Shown piece after piece: positions 29,895-52,344 of a stretch of DNA of 64,000 nt. Below the pieces are notes generated by a model. The model was not told the origin of the DNA, did not search any database, and saw only the letters and a program-made list of their open reading frames with translations. The DNA lies in IMG/VR virus record IMGVR_UViG_3300043448_000837, positions 50,041 to 114,040 of that record, one strand, 5' to 3'. Every line of letters starts with the position of its first letter. Position 1 is the stretch's first letter. Position numbers and translations under genes: made by a program. The DNA comes from a virus.

Positions 29895-31391
29895 TCAGAA
29901 GGTGAACTTCGTTTGAATTACGCCACCAAAGTTAGACGAAGCGCCGGTGAACGCTTGGTTGTTGGTTACGTAGAAGACAGCGGGAGTGATCGAGATGTTG
30001 TCGCTCACACGGTACTTGTAGAAGGCTTCCCACATCAGAGCATCCTTGGAAAGACTTGCGGCATTTCCAGGTTGGCCGATAGCGAAACCAGCACCGTTGC
30101 CTTTCGCGAAGACGTCACTCCACTGAAGGCCAGCGTACCACGATTCAGCGTTGGTTGCACCTGCAGGAGTGGTCTTGTTTTGAGCGGTCAGGCTCACAGT
30201 GTTCCAGCCGTAGCCAGCGCTCACAGAGGGCACGATTCCAGACTTGGAAGGTTGCCAGTAGGCGCTGATTGCGTAGCCGTTGGAAGTTTGACCGGGAGCA
30301 AGAACGCCAGAACCACCGTTCAGAGCGTTAAAAGTGCGAACCCGAGTTCCTTCCGTACCGTAGCGGTAACCGAACGCAACACCGTAATTAGAAGCACGGT
30401 AGCCAACTTGAGCCATCGTGTTCAGGGCGCCGGATTCGTTGAACTCACCCTTGGTGGAATCGTTTCCATTCTGGGCAACGTAGTTCAGACCAGCCACGAA
30501 ACCTTTCTTGCCGGGCTGCCTCCACTGGGCGCCGAAACCTGCACCGGTTGCCTTGTTGTAAACACCAGGCGCACCAGCAAGCTGGAAGAAGTCAAGGATT
30601 TCCGACTTGTACGCGGAAGGAATCCAGGCCATCTCCGTGTTACGAACCAGGGGGCCAGCGGTCAGGGTTAGACCCTTCGTGAAGGCGGGGAACTGGTAGT
30701 ACAGGCGATCCAGTTTGACAGTGTCGGCGGTGCTTTCAGCCTTGTCCAGCTTGAACAGCGAGGAGCTTGATCCGAAAGGTTGAGCCGAGAAGTTACCGGA
30801 ACGCAGGCGAGTGCGCAGCAGATCTTTGCCGGTGAACGACGTGTCGAAGTTCAGGCGAAGGTCGTAGTTGAAGGCGGTTTCCCCAACGTTCGTGCTGGGA
30901 GCGTTTTTGCCAACACCGGGAGTCTTGGCGCCATCAACTCCACCCAGAATGAAATTTGCTTCACCGCGAAGTTTGGTGGTGGTTGAGAACTGAGTTGCTT
31001 CCAGTTGACCAACCTTGGCTTCCAGCTTACTCACGCGACCGCGAATCACGGCCAGTTCAGCGGCGAACTCACGGGCAAGACGATTGAGTTCGTCCGTGAC
31101 TTCAGTTACGCGATCCAGGCAGGCATTCAGCAGGGCGGCAGCTTCGTAACGGGTCATCGCTTGACCGCCACCGTAAGTTCCGTCCGGGTAACCTGCAACG
31201 CAACCGTAGTTTTCTACGAGTTTTTGCAGAGCACCGTACGCCCAGTCGGTAGGCTTGACGTCTGAGAATTGAGCAATGCTCGTCACTTGCTCGGAAGAGT
31301 ATTGATTGACTGCGGCGATATTAAGATCAGCTGCAGATGCTACCAGCGGCGTCGTAACAACAGCACCGGCAACAATAAAAGATTTGATCAT
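29895..31391 (-). CDS. Cyanobacterial-type outer-membrane porin with SLH domain
   Basis: 498 residues. Signal peptide MIKSFIVAGAVVTTPLVASA; then an SLH domain (FSDVKPTDWAYGALQKLVENYGCVAGYPDGTYGGGQAMTRYEAA, about residues 42-90) that would bind peptidoglycan; a short coiled coil (ELNRLAREFAAELAVIRGRVSKLEAKVGQLEA); and an OprB/Som-like beta-barrel ending in phenylalanine (TKFTF). This is the full architecture of the major Synechococcus porins, intact and in frame, so it was probably taken from a host. Possible roles: nutrient uptake (iron, carbohydrate), changing the infected cell surface or blocking superinfection. The gene lies alone among tRNA genes with its own promoter region and terminator-like hairpin upstream. 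Confidence 0.8.
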   Translation of the reverse strand: MIKSFIVAGAVVTTPLVASAADLNIAAVNQYSSEQVTSIAQFSDVKPTDWAYGALQKLVENYGCVAGYPDGTYGGGQAMTRYEAAALLNACLDRVTEVTDELNRLAREFAAELAVIRGRVSKLEAKVGQLEATQFSTTTKLRGEANFILGGVDGAKTPGVGKNAPSTNVGETAFNYDLRLNFDTSFTGKDLLRTRLRSGNFSAQPFGSSSSLFKLDKAESTADTVKLDRLYYQFPAFTKGLTLTAGPLVRNTEMAWIPSAYKSEILDFFQLAGAPGVYNKATGAGFGAQWRQPGKKGFVAGLNYVAQNGNDSTKGEFNESGALNTMAQVGYRASNYGVAFGYRYGTEGTRVRTFNALNGGSGVLAPGQTSNGYAISAYWQPSKSGIVPSVSAGYGWNTVSLTAQNKTTPAGATNAESWYAGLQWSDVFAKGNGAGFAIGQPGNAASLSKDALMWEAFYKYRVSDNISITPAVFYVTNNQAFTGASSNFGGVIQTKFTF

Positions 31392-32031: not shown

Positions 32032-32400
32032 TTAGGCTCGCGAGTAACACACGTTAATGTGGCCACGGCCAGGATTTGCCAGCGCCTGGAAAGCAGCGTA
32101 GGAGAGATCAAGGTCTCGCCCAGCCACGAATGGGCCACGATCGTTGATTCGCACGACGACCGAACGGCCCCCGTGAGTTACTCGAAGTCGGGTTCCGAAC
32201 GGAAGATTACGGTGTGCCGCTGTCAAGGCATAGGTGTTAAACCGTTCTCCGCTCGCTGTAGTTTGACCGTGATAACCGTCACCTACTCCATAATAGCTGG
32301 CGCCAGAGCATGACGAAGCTAGAGAAGGCGATGGAGCCAGGAAAGTCATTCCGGCAACGGCGGCCAAACCAAACAAACCCTTCAGTTTCGAAACAAGCAT
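32032..32400 (-). CDS. RlpA-like double-psi beta-barrel protein, secreted
   Basis: 122 residues. Signal peptide ending SPSLAS, then ASYYG...[28 protein letters not shown] and VRINDRGPF...DLDLSYAAF, the RlpA domain with its catalytic-site region. RlpA proteins cleave denuded peptidoglycan. In a phage this could aid wall remodelling or lysis. The SPOR domain of cellular RlpA is absent. No lipobox is evident. Confidence 0.75.
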
Positions 32401-32574: not shown

Positions 32575-32599
32575 AAAAAAGGGAGGCGTAAACCTCCCC
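32575..32599 (-). terminator. tmRNA terminator
   Basis: GGGAGGTTTACGCCTCCC followed by TTTTTT, directly upstream of the TATAAT for the next gene. Confidence 0.8.
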
Positions 32600-32785
32600 G
32601 TTCGCTCAGAGTGTGTTGCTCAAACGGCAACAGCAGTCCTGCGGAATGAAACGATGTTGTTGAGATTTATTCTCACTTCACCCTGCACGGTCGATAACCA
32701 GTTTACCCCCGTGAAGTGGAGGTAAGGCGATTCGAACGCCTGTGTCGCACAGAGCGCCCCAGTTTATAGTCTTGTGAGAGGACTG
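32600..32785 (-). ncRNA. ssrA: Permuted two-piece tmRNA (ssrA)
   Basis: Minus strand order is the acceptor piece first (T arm AGGCG-TTCGAAT-CGCCT, then TACCTCC and discriminator A, 32717-32724), a 6-nt intervening CTTCAC (32711-32716), then the coding piece beginning GGGGGTAAACTGGTTATCGACC (32710 downward), which matches the tmRNA 5' consensus. GGGGGTA pairs with TACCTCC over 7 bp (one G-U). The tag frame at 32620-32661 reads NNIVSFRRTAVAV then TGA, close to the NNIV.F.R.A.PVAA-type tag of marine Synechococcus/Prochlorococcus, which also use permuted two-piece tmRNA. Adjacent to an HNH gene and followed by a strong terminator. Piece boundaries are approximate. Confidence 0.8.
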
Positions 32786-32788
32786 ATT

Positions 32789-33289
32789 TCAGCGTAATTT
32801 TCTACCTTTACGGTAATTTTCTGGGATAGGGTCACCTACCCTTATCTTCAAGTTTTTCTCCCCATTGGTAACCCACATAGTGCCGAATTGAGAATTTCTC
32901 TCCCCTTGTTGGTGTTTCATTTCAGCAAGAGTTTTTCGTCTCTTAGCTTTAGCCTCAGGAGATAGGGCAGCTTTTACGGCTAGAAGTCTATTCTTGCGTA
33001 GATTATTTAGCTGGTTCGATCTGTATTCTTCGTCGTTTTTCCACAGGAACGAAGTTCTCTCCCACATCTTCTCTAAGCCGCCGCTATTTCGAGCAAGTTG
33101 GTTAATAATTTCTTCTTTTCCAATTTCTCCTACCAATCCCTTCCACGCAATAAAATCACGTTTGTCTCCCCATAGTTGCCAGTTGCAGTAATGAAACATT
33201 GCATGTTGAGTTACCGAGACCTCGACTAGGTTTGAAAGATCATCGGTTCCCCCTTTATACTTCGGCAGAATGTGATGTTTGTGGGTCAT
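32789..33289 (-). CDS. HNH homing endonuclease next to tmRNA
   Basis: 166 residues. The N-terminus HKHHILPKYKGGTDDLSN..VSVTQHAMFHYCNWQLWG is nearly the same as that of the psbA-intron endonuclease at 50.7 kb, indicating one mobile family. The C-terminal half has Lys/Arg-rich repeats (SPEAKAKRRKTLAEM) for DNA binding. It ends 4 nt before the tmRNA start. Confidence 0.75.
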   Translation of the reverse strand: MTHKHHILPKYKGGTDDLSNLVEVSVTQHAMFHYCNWQLWGDKRDFIAWKGLVGEIGKEEIINQLARNSGGLEKMWERTSFLWKNDEEYRSNQLNNLRKNRLLAVKAALSPEAKAKRRKTLAEMKHQQGERNSQFGTMWVTNGEKNLKIRVGDPIPENYRKGRKLR

Positions 33290-48735: not shown

Positions 48736-48834
48736 TGGATTCACTCTATAAAGAAACAGAGTGCGTTCCTTCGGCGAAAAGCCTACTTCCGTTTGCTATT
48801 TGCAAATAACAAATGAACGTGAGTTGTTTTACCC

Positions 48835-49069: not shown

Positions 49070-49155
49070 GTGTCGTTTTCTAACTGAGTTTATTATAGCC
49101 CGCCTTGCCGGCGGAGTAAAGGGCGGTTAACCGGTCTAGCAGGTACGGTAAACCG
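49070..49155 (-). promoter_or_regulatory. Terminator-promoter element 17, overlapped by an ORF
   Basis: GGTTTACCGTACCTGC..., GGTTAACCGCCC, TTTACT, 17 nt, TATAAT, 20-nt leader. The endonuclease frame upstream runs through it. Confidence 0.6.
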
Positions 49156-49769
49156 TCCGGATGGATGAGTTCGGTTGTTGTAGGAGAGGAATATCGCCAA
49201 CCCTGTTGTTTGCAGTAACGGAGGCAGTCTTGCTCAAGGTCGAAGCATTCGCCGAGGGTGGAGGTGTGAAGGTGGATGATGGAGATGAGTTGCCCCTTAC
49301 GAAATCGCTCGGAGAGAGTTAACCTGGTGATACCTAACTTAAAGTGTGTGCCAGATTCATCCAAGTAGCGGATAAGGTAGAGGGTCCCAGGTAGAAGGCG
49401 CTGTTTGGATGTTGGTATCCAGGAGTTTTCTACTCCTTTCATTATTTCGCTATGTTTTACTCTCTCATCAGGATTATCCCATCTTTGTCGTCTGGCTTGC
49501 AGATGTTTTTCTTTACCGGTTACCCACGATTTCACTGCTGCTTTCCGTTTCTGCTCAGGGTCATGTGCTTTTGATGCTTGGGACTTGCAACAGAACTGTC
49601 TTTCCACGAACCTAATAACCGTTGTCTCCTTGACAACTCCGTGGGGACAAGAGCAACGAACTCTCGTAAGAGCGGTCAGATGATTAGGCACGAATACGCA
49701 CATGCTGAGGCGAGCGGCAGTGTTTGCCATCTCCTGTTTCCAGTTGCGTTGTGCGTACTGATTTGCCAT
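49080..49769 (-). CDS. Putative GIY-YIG-type mobile endonuclease downstream of psbA
   Basis: 229 residues. The N-terminal part has cysteines and a basic region (QKRKAAVKSWVTGKEKHLQARRQRW); GTLYLIRYLDESGTHFKLGITRLTLSERFRKGQ resembles the Y-x-x..K-I-G-x-T..L..R-F GIY-YIG/T5orf172 core. Free-standing endonucleases beside psbA are known in cyanophages. The last about 20 codons read through a terminator-promoter element, so the gene may have been inserted or lost its stop. Confidence 0.5.
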   Translation of the reverse strand: MANQYAQRNWKQEMANTAARLSMCVFVPNHLTALTRVRCSCPHGVVKETTVIRFVERQFCCKSQASKAHDPEQKRKAAVKSWVTGKEKHLQARRQRWDNPDERVKHSEIMKGVENSWIPTSKQRLLPGTLYLIRYLDESGTHFKLGITRLTLSERFRKGQLISIIHLHTSTLGECFDLEQDCLRYCKQQGWRYSSPTTTELIHPDGLPYLLDRLTALYSAGKAGYNKLS

Positions 49770-49823: not shown

Positions 49824-51702
49824 TCAGCCGATCGAGGGAGCGGTGAGGGCTACAGGTGTGAAGTCAACAGAAGCGAGGTCCAACGGAAAATTGTGGGCAT
49901 TTCTTTCGTGAGCTACTTCAAAACCAAGATTAGCACGATTCAGAATGTCAGCCCAAGTTGGAATAACACGATTCTGGCTATCAACCAAAGATTGGTTGAA
50001 GTTGAAGCCGTTTAGGTTGAAGGCCATGGTCGAGACGCCTAGCGCCGCGAACCATATTCCGACCACAGGCCAAGCAGCAAGAAAGAAATGAAGAGAACGG
50101 CTATTATTGAAGGATGCATACTGGAAGATCAAACGACCGAAGTAGCCATGGGCTGCAACAATGTTATAGGTTTCTTCTTCTTGTCCGAACTTGTATCCGT
50201 AGTTCTGGGAAATGTCCTCGGTCGTTTCACGAATCAGGCTGGAAGTCACCAGCGAACCGTGCATAGCACTGAACAAAGAACCACCAAAAACACCTGCAAC
50301 ACCCAGCATGTGGAAAGGGTGCATTAGAATGTTGTGCTCAGCTTGGAAAACGAGCATGTAGTTGAAGGTTCCGCTGATTCCGAGTGGCATACCATCGGAG
50401 AATGAACCTTGTCCGAAAGGATAAACCAGGAAAACGGCGGTTGCTGCTGCTACCGGAGCAGAGTAAGCAACAAAAATCCAAGGACGCATACCCAGGCGGT
50501 AGCTAAGCTCCCATTCACGGCCCATGTAGCAAAAAACGCCGAGAAGGAAGTGGAAGACGGTAAGTTGGTAAGGGCCACCGTTGTAGCAGGGTGGCATCCA
50601 CTTGTTTCCAAGTGGCGTGGACTATATCATCACTCTCACGAGTGTCGGGCGCTAATGTCGTATTACGAGTCACGCTTGACTCACCGACTAGTCTCTGAAC
50701 CTTCCGCTCAAGCGTGAGCGGCTTGGCTGCTGATTGCCATACTAATGGAACACGTAACCCCGTTGTGAATAAGGCGTTCCCCGATGGGTAACTTAGCCAG
50801 GTGGGCGGTTGACACCTTGACACCAAAGGCTTCCTCAATCATTTCTGCCACTTGACTGTAATCGACACCGGGTTCGGCAACGATTGTTCCGAGTTTCTTT
50901 CCGATCTTTCGTTCGGTAATCTTCTCGTGAACGTGGAAGTGGCGCTCCCATTTCCTACTGTCAAATACAGATTGGCGAGAGTTTCTCTTATTTTTTCCTC
51001 GATTATCGTCATTCCAGGTGGAGAGTTTTCTTCCTATGGCTTGACGAGTTTCCCGAGGTTGCTTAAGAGCGGCTTCTCGGAGTTGGCCGCTTTCTTTAGC
51101 GGCTTTACCACCTTTCTTCCCAGCAAAGGAAAGAATCAGCTCAACGATTTCCTCCTTGTTTATCGCACCGGACAAAGCCTTGTAAGCGATTCGGTCACCC
51201 TCGCTGCCCCAAAGTTGCCAGTTGGCGTAGTGGAACATTGCGTGACGAGTAACACTAATACCCTTAACAATGTTGGAAGGGTCGTCGGAGCCGCCGAGAT
51301 GTCTAGGTAGTAAATGGTGATTGTGTTTCATTTTCAGGTTTCCAGCAGTTCACCCGATTTATAGTGGCCCTACAGGCTGAGCCACTCATCCAAGGAAGCA
51401 GCTTCCCAGATAGGGTAGAAGTGCAGGCCAATAGCGTTACTGGACGGCACAACAGCGCCAGAAATGATGTTGTTCCCATACAGGAGAGAACCAGCGACTG
51501 GTTCACGAATTCCGTCGATATCGACAGGAGGAGCGGCGACGAACGCGACAATGAAGCAAATAGTTGCGGCAAGCAACGTCGGGATCATCAGTGTACCAAA
51601 CCAACCTACGTAGAGGCGGTTATTGGTTGAAGTCACCCATTGGCAGAAAGACTCCCAGGAATCAGCGAGGGGAGAACGACGAGTTAAAACAGAAGCGGTC
51701 AT
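49824..51702 (-). CDS. psbA: Photosystem II D1 protein, split by a group I intron
   Basis: Exon 1 is 51380-51702 and exon 2 is 49824-50586; joined they give 361 residues, the normal D1 length. Exon 1 reads [16 protein letters not shown]...LDEWL and exon 2 [13 protein letters not shown]...; the junction leucine codon CT|C is completed by exon 2. Histidines for chlorophyll and Mn/Fe ligands ([28 protein letters not shown]) are present. Replaces damaged host D1 so photosynthesis continues in infection. TATAAT at about 51757-51762 with TTTACA upstream gives a leader of about 54 nt. The C-terminal ending APSIG is close to cellular D1. Confidence 0.95.
50587..51379 (-). ncRNA. Group I intron in psbA
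   Basis: 793 nt. The 5' exon ends AGTGGCT and pairs with GGCCACT (51363-51369) to form P1 with the required U-G at the splice site; the intron ends in G before exon 2. The downstream part has GTTCAGAGACTAG and GATATAGTCC, the conserved P7/P9 region strands. Contains the HNH gene. Confidence 0.85.
50708..51331 (-). CDS. Intron-encoded HNH homing endonuclease
   Basis: 207 residues. [37 protein letters not shown] carries the H-H...H core seen also in the tmRNA-linked copy at 32.8 kb. C-terminal half has a DNA-binding helix region ([26 protein letters not shown]). Lies wholly inside the intron, starting after P3/P4. Expected to cleave intronless psbA and spread the intron. Confidence 0.8.
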   Translation of the reverse strand: MKHNHHLLPRHLGGSDDPSNIVKGISVTRHAMFHYANWQLWGSEGDRIAYKALSGAINKEEIVELILSFAGKKGGKAAKESGQLREAALKQPRETRQAIGRKLSTWNDDNRGKNKRNSRQSVFDSRKWERHFHVHEKITERKIGKKLGTIVAEPGVDYSQVAEMIEEAFGVKVSTAHLAKLPIGERLIHNGVTCSISMAISSQAAHA

Positions 51703-51798
51703 TAGTCATGATAAGTACGTTTGCATTTTAAGTACTCAGCGGAACTACCGCCTACATGACCATTATACCCTTTGTAAAGTTTTGTAAACTTTTATACC
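51703..51798 (-). promoter_or_regulatory. psbA promoter and leader
   Basis: TTTACA repeated twice, then TATAATGG, and about 54 nt to the ATG. Confidence 0.6.
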
Positions 51799-52344
51799 TC
51801 AGCCGCCCTTCGTCAGTTTGTTTGCTTCACGCTCCAGCTTGCGCTGCTCAGGAGTCATGGCAGCGTTGCTCTCACGCTTGGCGGCGGCGAAGTACTTGTC
51901 GGATGCCTTCAATGCGGCTCTCTCAGCTTTGTCCAGTGCCATGCTTGCGTTGAGTCGGCGGCGCAGAGACTCAGGGCTCTTGTCACCTTTCGTTGCAGCA
52001 TTGACGAGAGCAAGCTCACCCTTGGCGGCTTTGACCGCCTTTTCCGTTTTTGCCCACTCTTTCTTCAAGTCCTTGGACGAGGCGCGAGGTTTAGCTCCTT
52101 TCATCTTCTGAACCACCGCCTTCGCGTCAGAGTCGGTGGCTGCTCTCGGCCTACTTGCGGGTTTCTCAGCAGGTCCACCCTCGGTACCTTTCCGGCATTT
52201 CCCCCGAGTTCCGTAAGCTGAACCGTCAGGGCGCACGCAGCGAGTGAAATCGTAGAGGTCGCCCTCAGCGAAATCCGCAGCTTGAGTTTGGGCTGCGAGT
52301 TGAGCGAATTGCTCAAGCGCCTCCTCAGAAAAAGAACCGTACAT
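51799..52344 (-). CDS. Virion-type protein with RPDG...GKCRKG tag
   Basis: 181 residues. FSEEALEQFAQLAA start, then YDFTRCVRPDGSAYGTRGKCRKGTE (about residues 30-55), then a Lys/Ala-rich helical body. The tag recurs in the 56-kb protein. Likely packaged or maturation-related; that is inference. Confidence 0.6.
   Translation of the reverse strand: MYGSFSEEALEQFAQLAAQTQAADFAEGDLYDFTRCVRPDGSAYGTRGKCRKGTEGGPAEKPASRPRAATDSDAKAVVQKMKGAKPRASSKDLKKEWAKTEKAVKAAKGELALVNAATKGDKSPESLRRRLNASMALDKAERAALKASDKYFAAAKRESNAAMTPEQRKLEREANKLTKGG

Follow-up and report, generated by a model that had tools for sequence, protein, structure and literature searches.

The locus at 32600-32785 raises the question of whether a virus carries a working tmRNA of its own and, if so, what it might gain from a tag that ends differently from those of cyanobacteria. 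The window, that is, the whole 64,000-nucleotide stretch analyzed here, comprises bases 50041-114040 of a 114,040-base IMG/VR virus record. It encodes photosystem II D1 (psbA), ribonucleotide reductase, and tail and virion proteins, and the matches of its psbA and of one structural protein, at the DNA or protein level, are Synechococcus phages. The source of the window is a T4-like, psbA-bearing cyanophage. A sequence-only reading had proposed a permuted two-piece tmRNA at this locus; its coordinates were right, and they are refined here by assigning the gene to the minus strand and following it on to a terminator at 32599-32575.

The locus sits in a tRNA-rich region, with 32 tRNAs called by ARAGORN within the window. 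Immediately upstream, an HNH-type ORF (32789-33289, minus strand) separates the tmRNA from the tRNA cluster, whereas the viral locus L003 has a tRNA-Val directly upstream of its tmRNA in that place. A gene for an RlpA-like lytic transglycosylase (32032-32400, minus strand) adjoins the tmRNA, and an RlpA-like gene is likewise close to the tmRNA of isolate S-CRM01. The same genome holds a glutamine riboswitch (48760-48821, minus strand, 53.9 bits), a rare combination with a tmRNA in one phage genome (PMC9004378). A group I intron (Rfam 68.3 bits, 50598-51476) apparently interrupts psbA itself (49824-51799, minus strand), and an endonuclease-like ORF (49080-49769) lies downstream. A protein of 498 aa that carries S-layer homology and OprB porin domains (29895-31391, minus strand) resembles a cyanobacterial outer-membrane porin and matched no PHROG family.

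Anatomy and covariation of the tmRNA gene

The whole gene occupies 32575-32784 of the minus strand and consists of acceptor piece, spacer, coding piece, and terminator, as read from the sequence, the sub-threshold Rfam matches, and a dedicated covariance model; the acceptor-first order already proposed was thus borne out. The acceptor piece has in its 5' part a weak hairpin, AGUC/GACU (32768-32784, read from the sequence), where relatives have a longer, covarying hairpin (5 of 7 pairs changed on both sides and 80.7% of cells paired). It is followed by the first strand of P2, CGCUCUGUGCG (32746-32756), the T-arm AGGCG-UUCGAAU-CGCCU (32725-32741), and the 3' strand of the acceptor stem, UACCUCC, with discriminator A (32717-32724); CCA is not encoded. 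The spacer CUUCAC (32711-32716), identical to that of a cyanobacterial tmRNA (L113), is presumably removed by processing. Across these 6 nt, UACCUCC pairs with GGGGGUA (32704-32710) in the 7-bp helix that the sequence-only reading had described, in which G3 pairs with U70. The 5' consensus GGGGGUAAACUGGUUAUCGACC was also found on the minus strand as claimed. With this acceptor stem, a T-arm, and no anticodon arm, the tRNA-like domain is of the alanyl type.

A putative D-loop-like SmpB-binding region, AACUGGUUAUCGAC (32690-32703), is one base longer than in hosts and precedes the second strand of P2, CGUGCAGGGUG (32679-32689), which pairs with 32756-32746. In the place of pseudoknot 1 stands a hairpin of 5 bp, UGAGA-AUAAA-UCUCA (32661-32675), containing an AUAA resume determinant (32670-32667). 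The tag reading frame (32620-32664) runs from CTC (32664-32662) through LNNIVSFRRTAVAV to the stop codon TGA (32622-32620), which lies in the loop of the P5 hairpin GUUGC-CGUUUGA-GCAAC (32615-32631, 98% of cells paired). An intrinsic terminator, GGGGAGGTTTACGCCTCCC followed by a T-run (32575-32599), ends the gene.

The AUAA tetramer lies two bases upstream of CTC, and since AUAA or AUAG is the determinant preferred at this distance before a resume codon (PMC4236655), CTC (Leu) is the likely resume codon. The frame AAC AAC ATC GTT TCA TTC CGC AGG ACT GCT GTT GCC GTT TGA, translated as NNIVSFRRTAVAV*, is present as the sequence-only reading stated, but the leading leucine had been omitted; the predicted tag, (A)LNNIVSFRRTAVAV, is probably one residue longer. 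Cyanobacterial genes and the phage locus L007 have GUAAC(U/A)-GCG at equal distance before the tag. We do not claim a covarying pre-tag hairpin: within the subclass described below it hardly varies, and the hairpin of L007 is a different one, shifted by one column.

The search tools suggested for checking the gene gave divided answers. ARAGORN called no tmRNA at the window locus, and no Rfam tmRNA family exceeded its own threshold there. The scores were 33.3 bits for RF01850, 32.2 bits over the full length for RF04321, and 37.3 bits for RF01851, the last two against gathering cut-offs of 47 and 70 bits, which are curated limits rather than biological features. An independent covariance model, for which 15 phage tmRNAs of related viral contigs were used and the window and its near kin left out, gave the window gene 137.2 bits at 32765-32612, its sole match in 64 kb (E 2e-37, a rough value). 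A blastn search of INPHARED phages with the window tmRNA found nothing, and relatives were gathered by pattern scans of IMG/VR.

Among 28 phage sequences, 96.5% of the pairs in the tRNA-like domain and P2 are standard, and 14 of 20 pairs have changed on both sides. No shuffle out of 500 did as well and slid structures were far worse, the slid control being the one that corrects for relatedness, which shuffles do not. Compensatory changes occur in the T-stem, the acceptor stem, and P2, that is, in all three helices counted: 5 of 5 pairs changed on both sides in the T-arm (100% of cells paired), and 6 of 8 in P2 (91.2%). The alanine-identity pair G3-U70 is kept in all 27 distinct phage sequences. 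Single-strand folding (z -1.8) is uninformative on its own. The window element is a complete, phage-borne, circularly permuted two-piece tmRNA of cyanobacterial type. This assignment and the NNIV-type tag agree with the sequence-only reading, but its attribution to marine cyanobacteria is not established, the isolate with a similar neighborhood, S-CRM01, being from freshwater.

A compact subclass and its detection

ARAGORN and Rfam overlook one subclass of cyanophage tmRNAs, which have a hairpin at the position of the longer PK1-type segment of hosts. ARAGORN gave no tmRNA or a wrong tag at the window-type loci L003, L004, L007, L134, L137, L150, L156, L176, and L180, whereas for cyanophage tmRNAs outside this set (L154, L184, L149, L269) it read the AVAV tag correctly. 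Most of the subclass, the window tmRNA included, falls below the Rfam thresholds: L134, L137, L150, L156, and L007 fail and L180 barely passes, while L154, L184, and S-CRM01 pass. The tmRNA of E. coli still tags when its PK1 is cut down to a hairpin (PMC4236655). Furthermore, tmRNAs are present in S-CRM01, S-CAM1, S-CAM3, and S-SSM7, whose records, as examined, carry no such annotation.

Several other loci deserve mention. L269 and L270 (records G658 and G657) share the tag ANNIVKFERIAVAV and an unusually long spacer, of about 85 nt, between acceptor and coding pieces. A genome of the Synechococcus family (G142) has an extra compact tmRNA (L279, 4964-5113, minus strand), whose tag, ANNIKRTERTLAIAA, keeps an AA end; the element that carries it also has an integrase-like gene. 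In Synechococcus WH7803, part of the coding piece of the host tmRNA occurs a second time, with no acceptor piece (L280, 861000-865000), perhaps as a remnant of an integration event.

Tag termini in cyanophages and their hosts

The sequence-only reading had remarked that the tag ends in AVAV rather than VAA. The altered terminus was confirmed; it recurs among phages, and none of the host genomes searched showed it. The 73 viral records with a cyanobacterial-type tmRNA, a set collected in part by tag-based patterns, contain 25 different tags. In a tag-agnostic sample of IMG/VR, 24 of 34 contigs of this type (17 of 24 distinct) are valine-ended, with the endings AVAV, APVAV, AQTV, and ALV; other tmRNA types in the same sample mostly end, as judged by eye, in ALAA or a similar alanine-ended sequence, and L192 ends in ALAV. 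On the host side, a pattern that left the last position free to be alanine or valine gave 77 matches in 76 of 292 cyanobacterial genomes, every one of them with a final alanine, where the window tag has valine. Patterns with a valine end found no match in 400 and in 300 picocyanobacterial genomes.

Isolates show further endings, namely, STVAA in S-CAM1 and S-CAM3, LVTA in S-SSM7, LATA in Sf-FS3 and AG-345-P14, and VAAL in S-CRM01. Some cyanophage tmRNAs keep VAA ends (APVAA and STVAA), and therefore a phage tag can do without valine. Taken together, the phage tags deviate from the ending used by hosts, most often by a change to valine, and the valine-ended cyanophage tag is a new, phage-specific terminus. 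Neither valine-ended cyanophage tags nor the compact subclass was found mentioned in the open-access literature searched.

The valine-ended tag recurs on different cyanophage tmRNA bodies. On a tree of the bodies, from which the tag was left out, the valine end needs 8 changes or more, and its confinement to one clade is rejected. The count of origins is approximate, given about 130 columns, a number of long branches, and a 3' module that has probably recombined. Recombination, as opposed to selection on the final residue, could explain why different bodies carry an identical 3' module.

Proposed function and comparison with known systems

Once transcribed, as we infer the gene to be, the RNA would be cut by host tRNA-processing enzymes into acceptor and coding pieces, which the acceptor stem and P2 would hold together. 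It would be charged with alanine via G3-U70 and carried to stalled ribosomes by host SmpB, whose use is presumed because no SmpB gene was found in the phage record, which is possibly incomplete, or in the related phages searched; the search for a phage-encoded ClpP also found none. Translation would resume at CUC, (A)LNNIVSFRRTAVAV would be appended, and release would follow. Because the tag ends in AVAV and not in PVAA, host ClpXP should recognize it less well, so that the phage would gain ribosome recycling during infection without equal proteolysis of the tagged proteins. The sequence-only reading had taken a phage copy to imply control of ribosome rescue and had suggested that ClpXP recognition could be changed; on the sequence, both may hold.

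In Synechocystis, two ssrA tags that end in valine, AAV and ASV, are reported to act less strongly as degrons than LVA (PMC3446811); in E. coli, AAV is likewise the slower tag (PMC9382460). Since valine-ended variants are weaker in both organisms, we judge a working phage two-piece tmRNA, rescuing ribosomes via host SmpB with reduced degradation, to be the most likely reading, with a probability of roughly 0.55. Cyanobacterial proteases might accept AVAV. What the phage-specific, recurrent change at the degradation-signal end offers is a testable idea: the virus wants ribosomes back, not host proteolysis. At rather less than even odds, we extend this to the proposal that cyanophages have repeatedly uncoupled rescue from destruction through degron-weakened, mostly valine-ended tags, assembled in part as different tmRNA bodies swapped a tag-plus-P5 module, and with a compact subclass that escapes standard annotation.

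Next in rank, and possible though doubtful, is an ordinary supplementary tmRNA whose tag is degraded normally, the valine being neutral or equally read, and which copes with mRNA breakage during takeover, as the tRNAs would. The tRNA-rich setting and its 32 calls suit such a role, as do the VAA ends kept by some related phages and the finding that the tag can be replaced after its second codon with tagging kept (PMC4236655). It is less easily squared with the weakness of valine-ended degrons in Synechocystis (PMC3446811) and with a valine that recurs in phages and was found in none of the hosts.

An improbable alternative is a decoy or inhibitor that titrates SmpB or occupies ribosomes, suppressing host trans-translation as proposed for mycobacteriophage DS6A, whose type of tRNA-like domain inhibits tmRNA (PMC4131195, PMC11915505). 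The lack of a detected SmpB gene in the phage record would suit a decoy, but such a molecule would have no need of the features seen here: an unbroken tag frame, a resume determinant, a P5 loop that holds the stop codon, and conserved N and C termini of the tag. Even less credit is due to a decaying relic or fragment without function, captured via integration at a host tmRNA gene. tmRNA genes do serve as integration sites (PMC11915505), and WH7803 shows that a tag-bearing fragment lacking the acceptor piece can exist, but the window has a complete two-piece gene with its own terminator, and the compensatory changes in three helices across divergent phages (14 of 20 pairs over 28 sequences) contradict decay. 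Chance resemblance within the tRNA-rich region, or a tRNA-derived artefact, is negligible in spite of the silence of ARAGORN and the sub-threshold Rfam scores, being ruled out by the covariation (0 of 500 shuffles) together with the 137.2 bits of the independent model.

Among the known systems that come close is the two-piece tmRNA of Synechococcus and Prochlorococcus (RF01851 cyano_tmRNA, RF04321 tmRNA_permuted). The window gene has in common with it the acceptor-first order, the short spacer, the absence of an encoded CCA, G3-U70, the NNIV-type tag, and P2 between the pieces. It differs from the host gene in that the PK1-type segment is a hairpin only, without the pseudoknot 1 typical of RF01851, which makes it a variant, and in the D-loop longer by one base and the Leu (CTC) resume codon in place of Ala. 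Host copies score about 300 bits with RF01851, against 37.3 bits for the window. Compared with the host tag A-NNIV...VAA, that of the window, LNNIV...AVAV, has its PVAA end replaced and is two residues shorter.

Among phages, the tmRNA of the Synechococcus phage S-CRM01 (NC_015569 88361-88533, unannotated) resembles the window gene in lying beside tRNAs and near an RlpA-like gene and in the tag core FRRTAV, but its tag is ANNVVKFRRTAVTSLVAAL and both ARAGORN and Rfam detect it. The DS6A RNA is, like that of the window, a phage tmRNA derivative, but it has no tag frame. Two-piece tmRNAs have been published in phage Melnitz and other aquatic phages, for a survey total of 53 (PMC9004378), and a 2025 database holds 79 phage tmRNAs of all forms (PMC11915505). 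Melnitz shares with the window a phage-borne permuted tmRNA accompanied by a glutamine riboswitch; its tmRNA is of the alphaproteobacterial type, whereas that of the window is cyanobacterial, and the Melnitz survey relied on ARAGORN, which misses the subclass of the window. The category of phage two-piece tmRNA was thus already known, whereas the compact subclass, with a hairpin for pseudoknot 1 and a Leu resume codon, is new.
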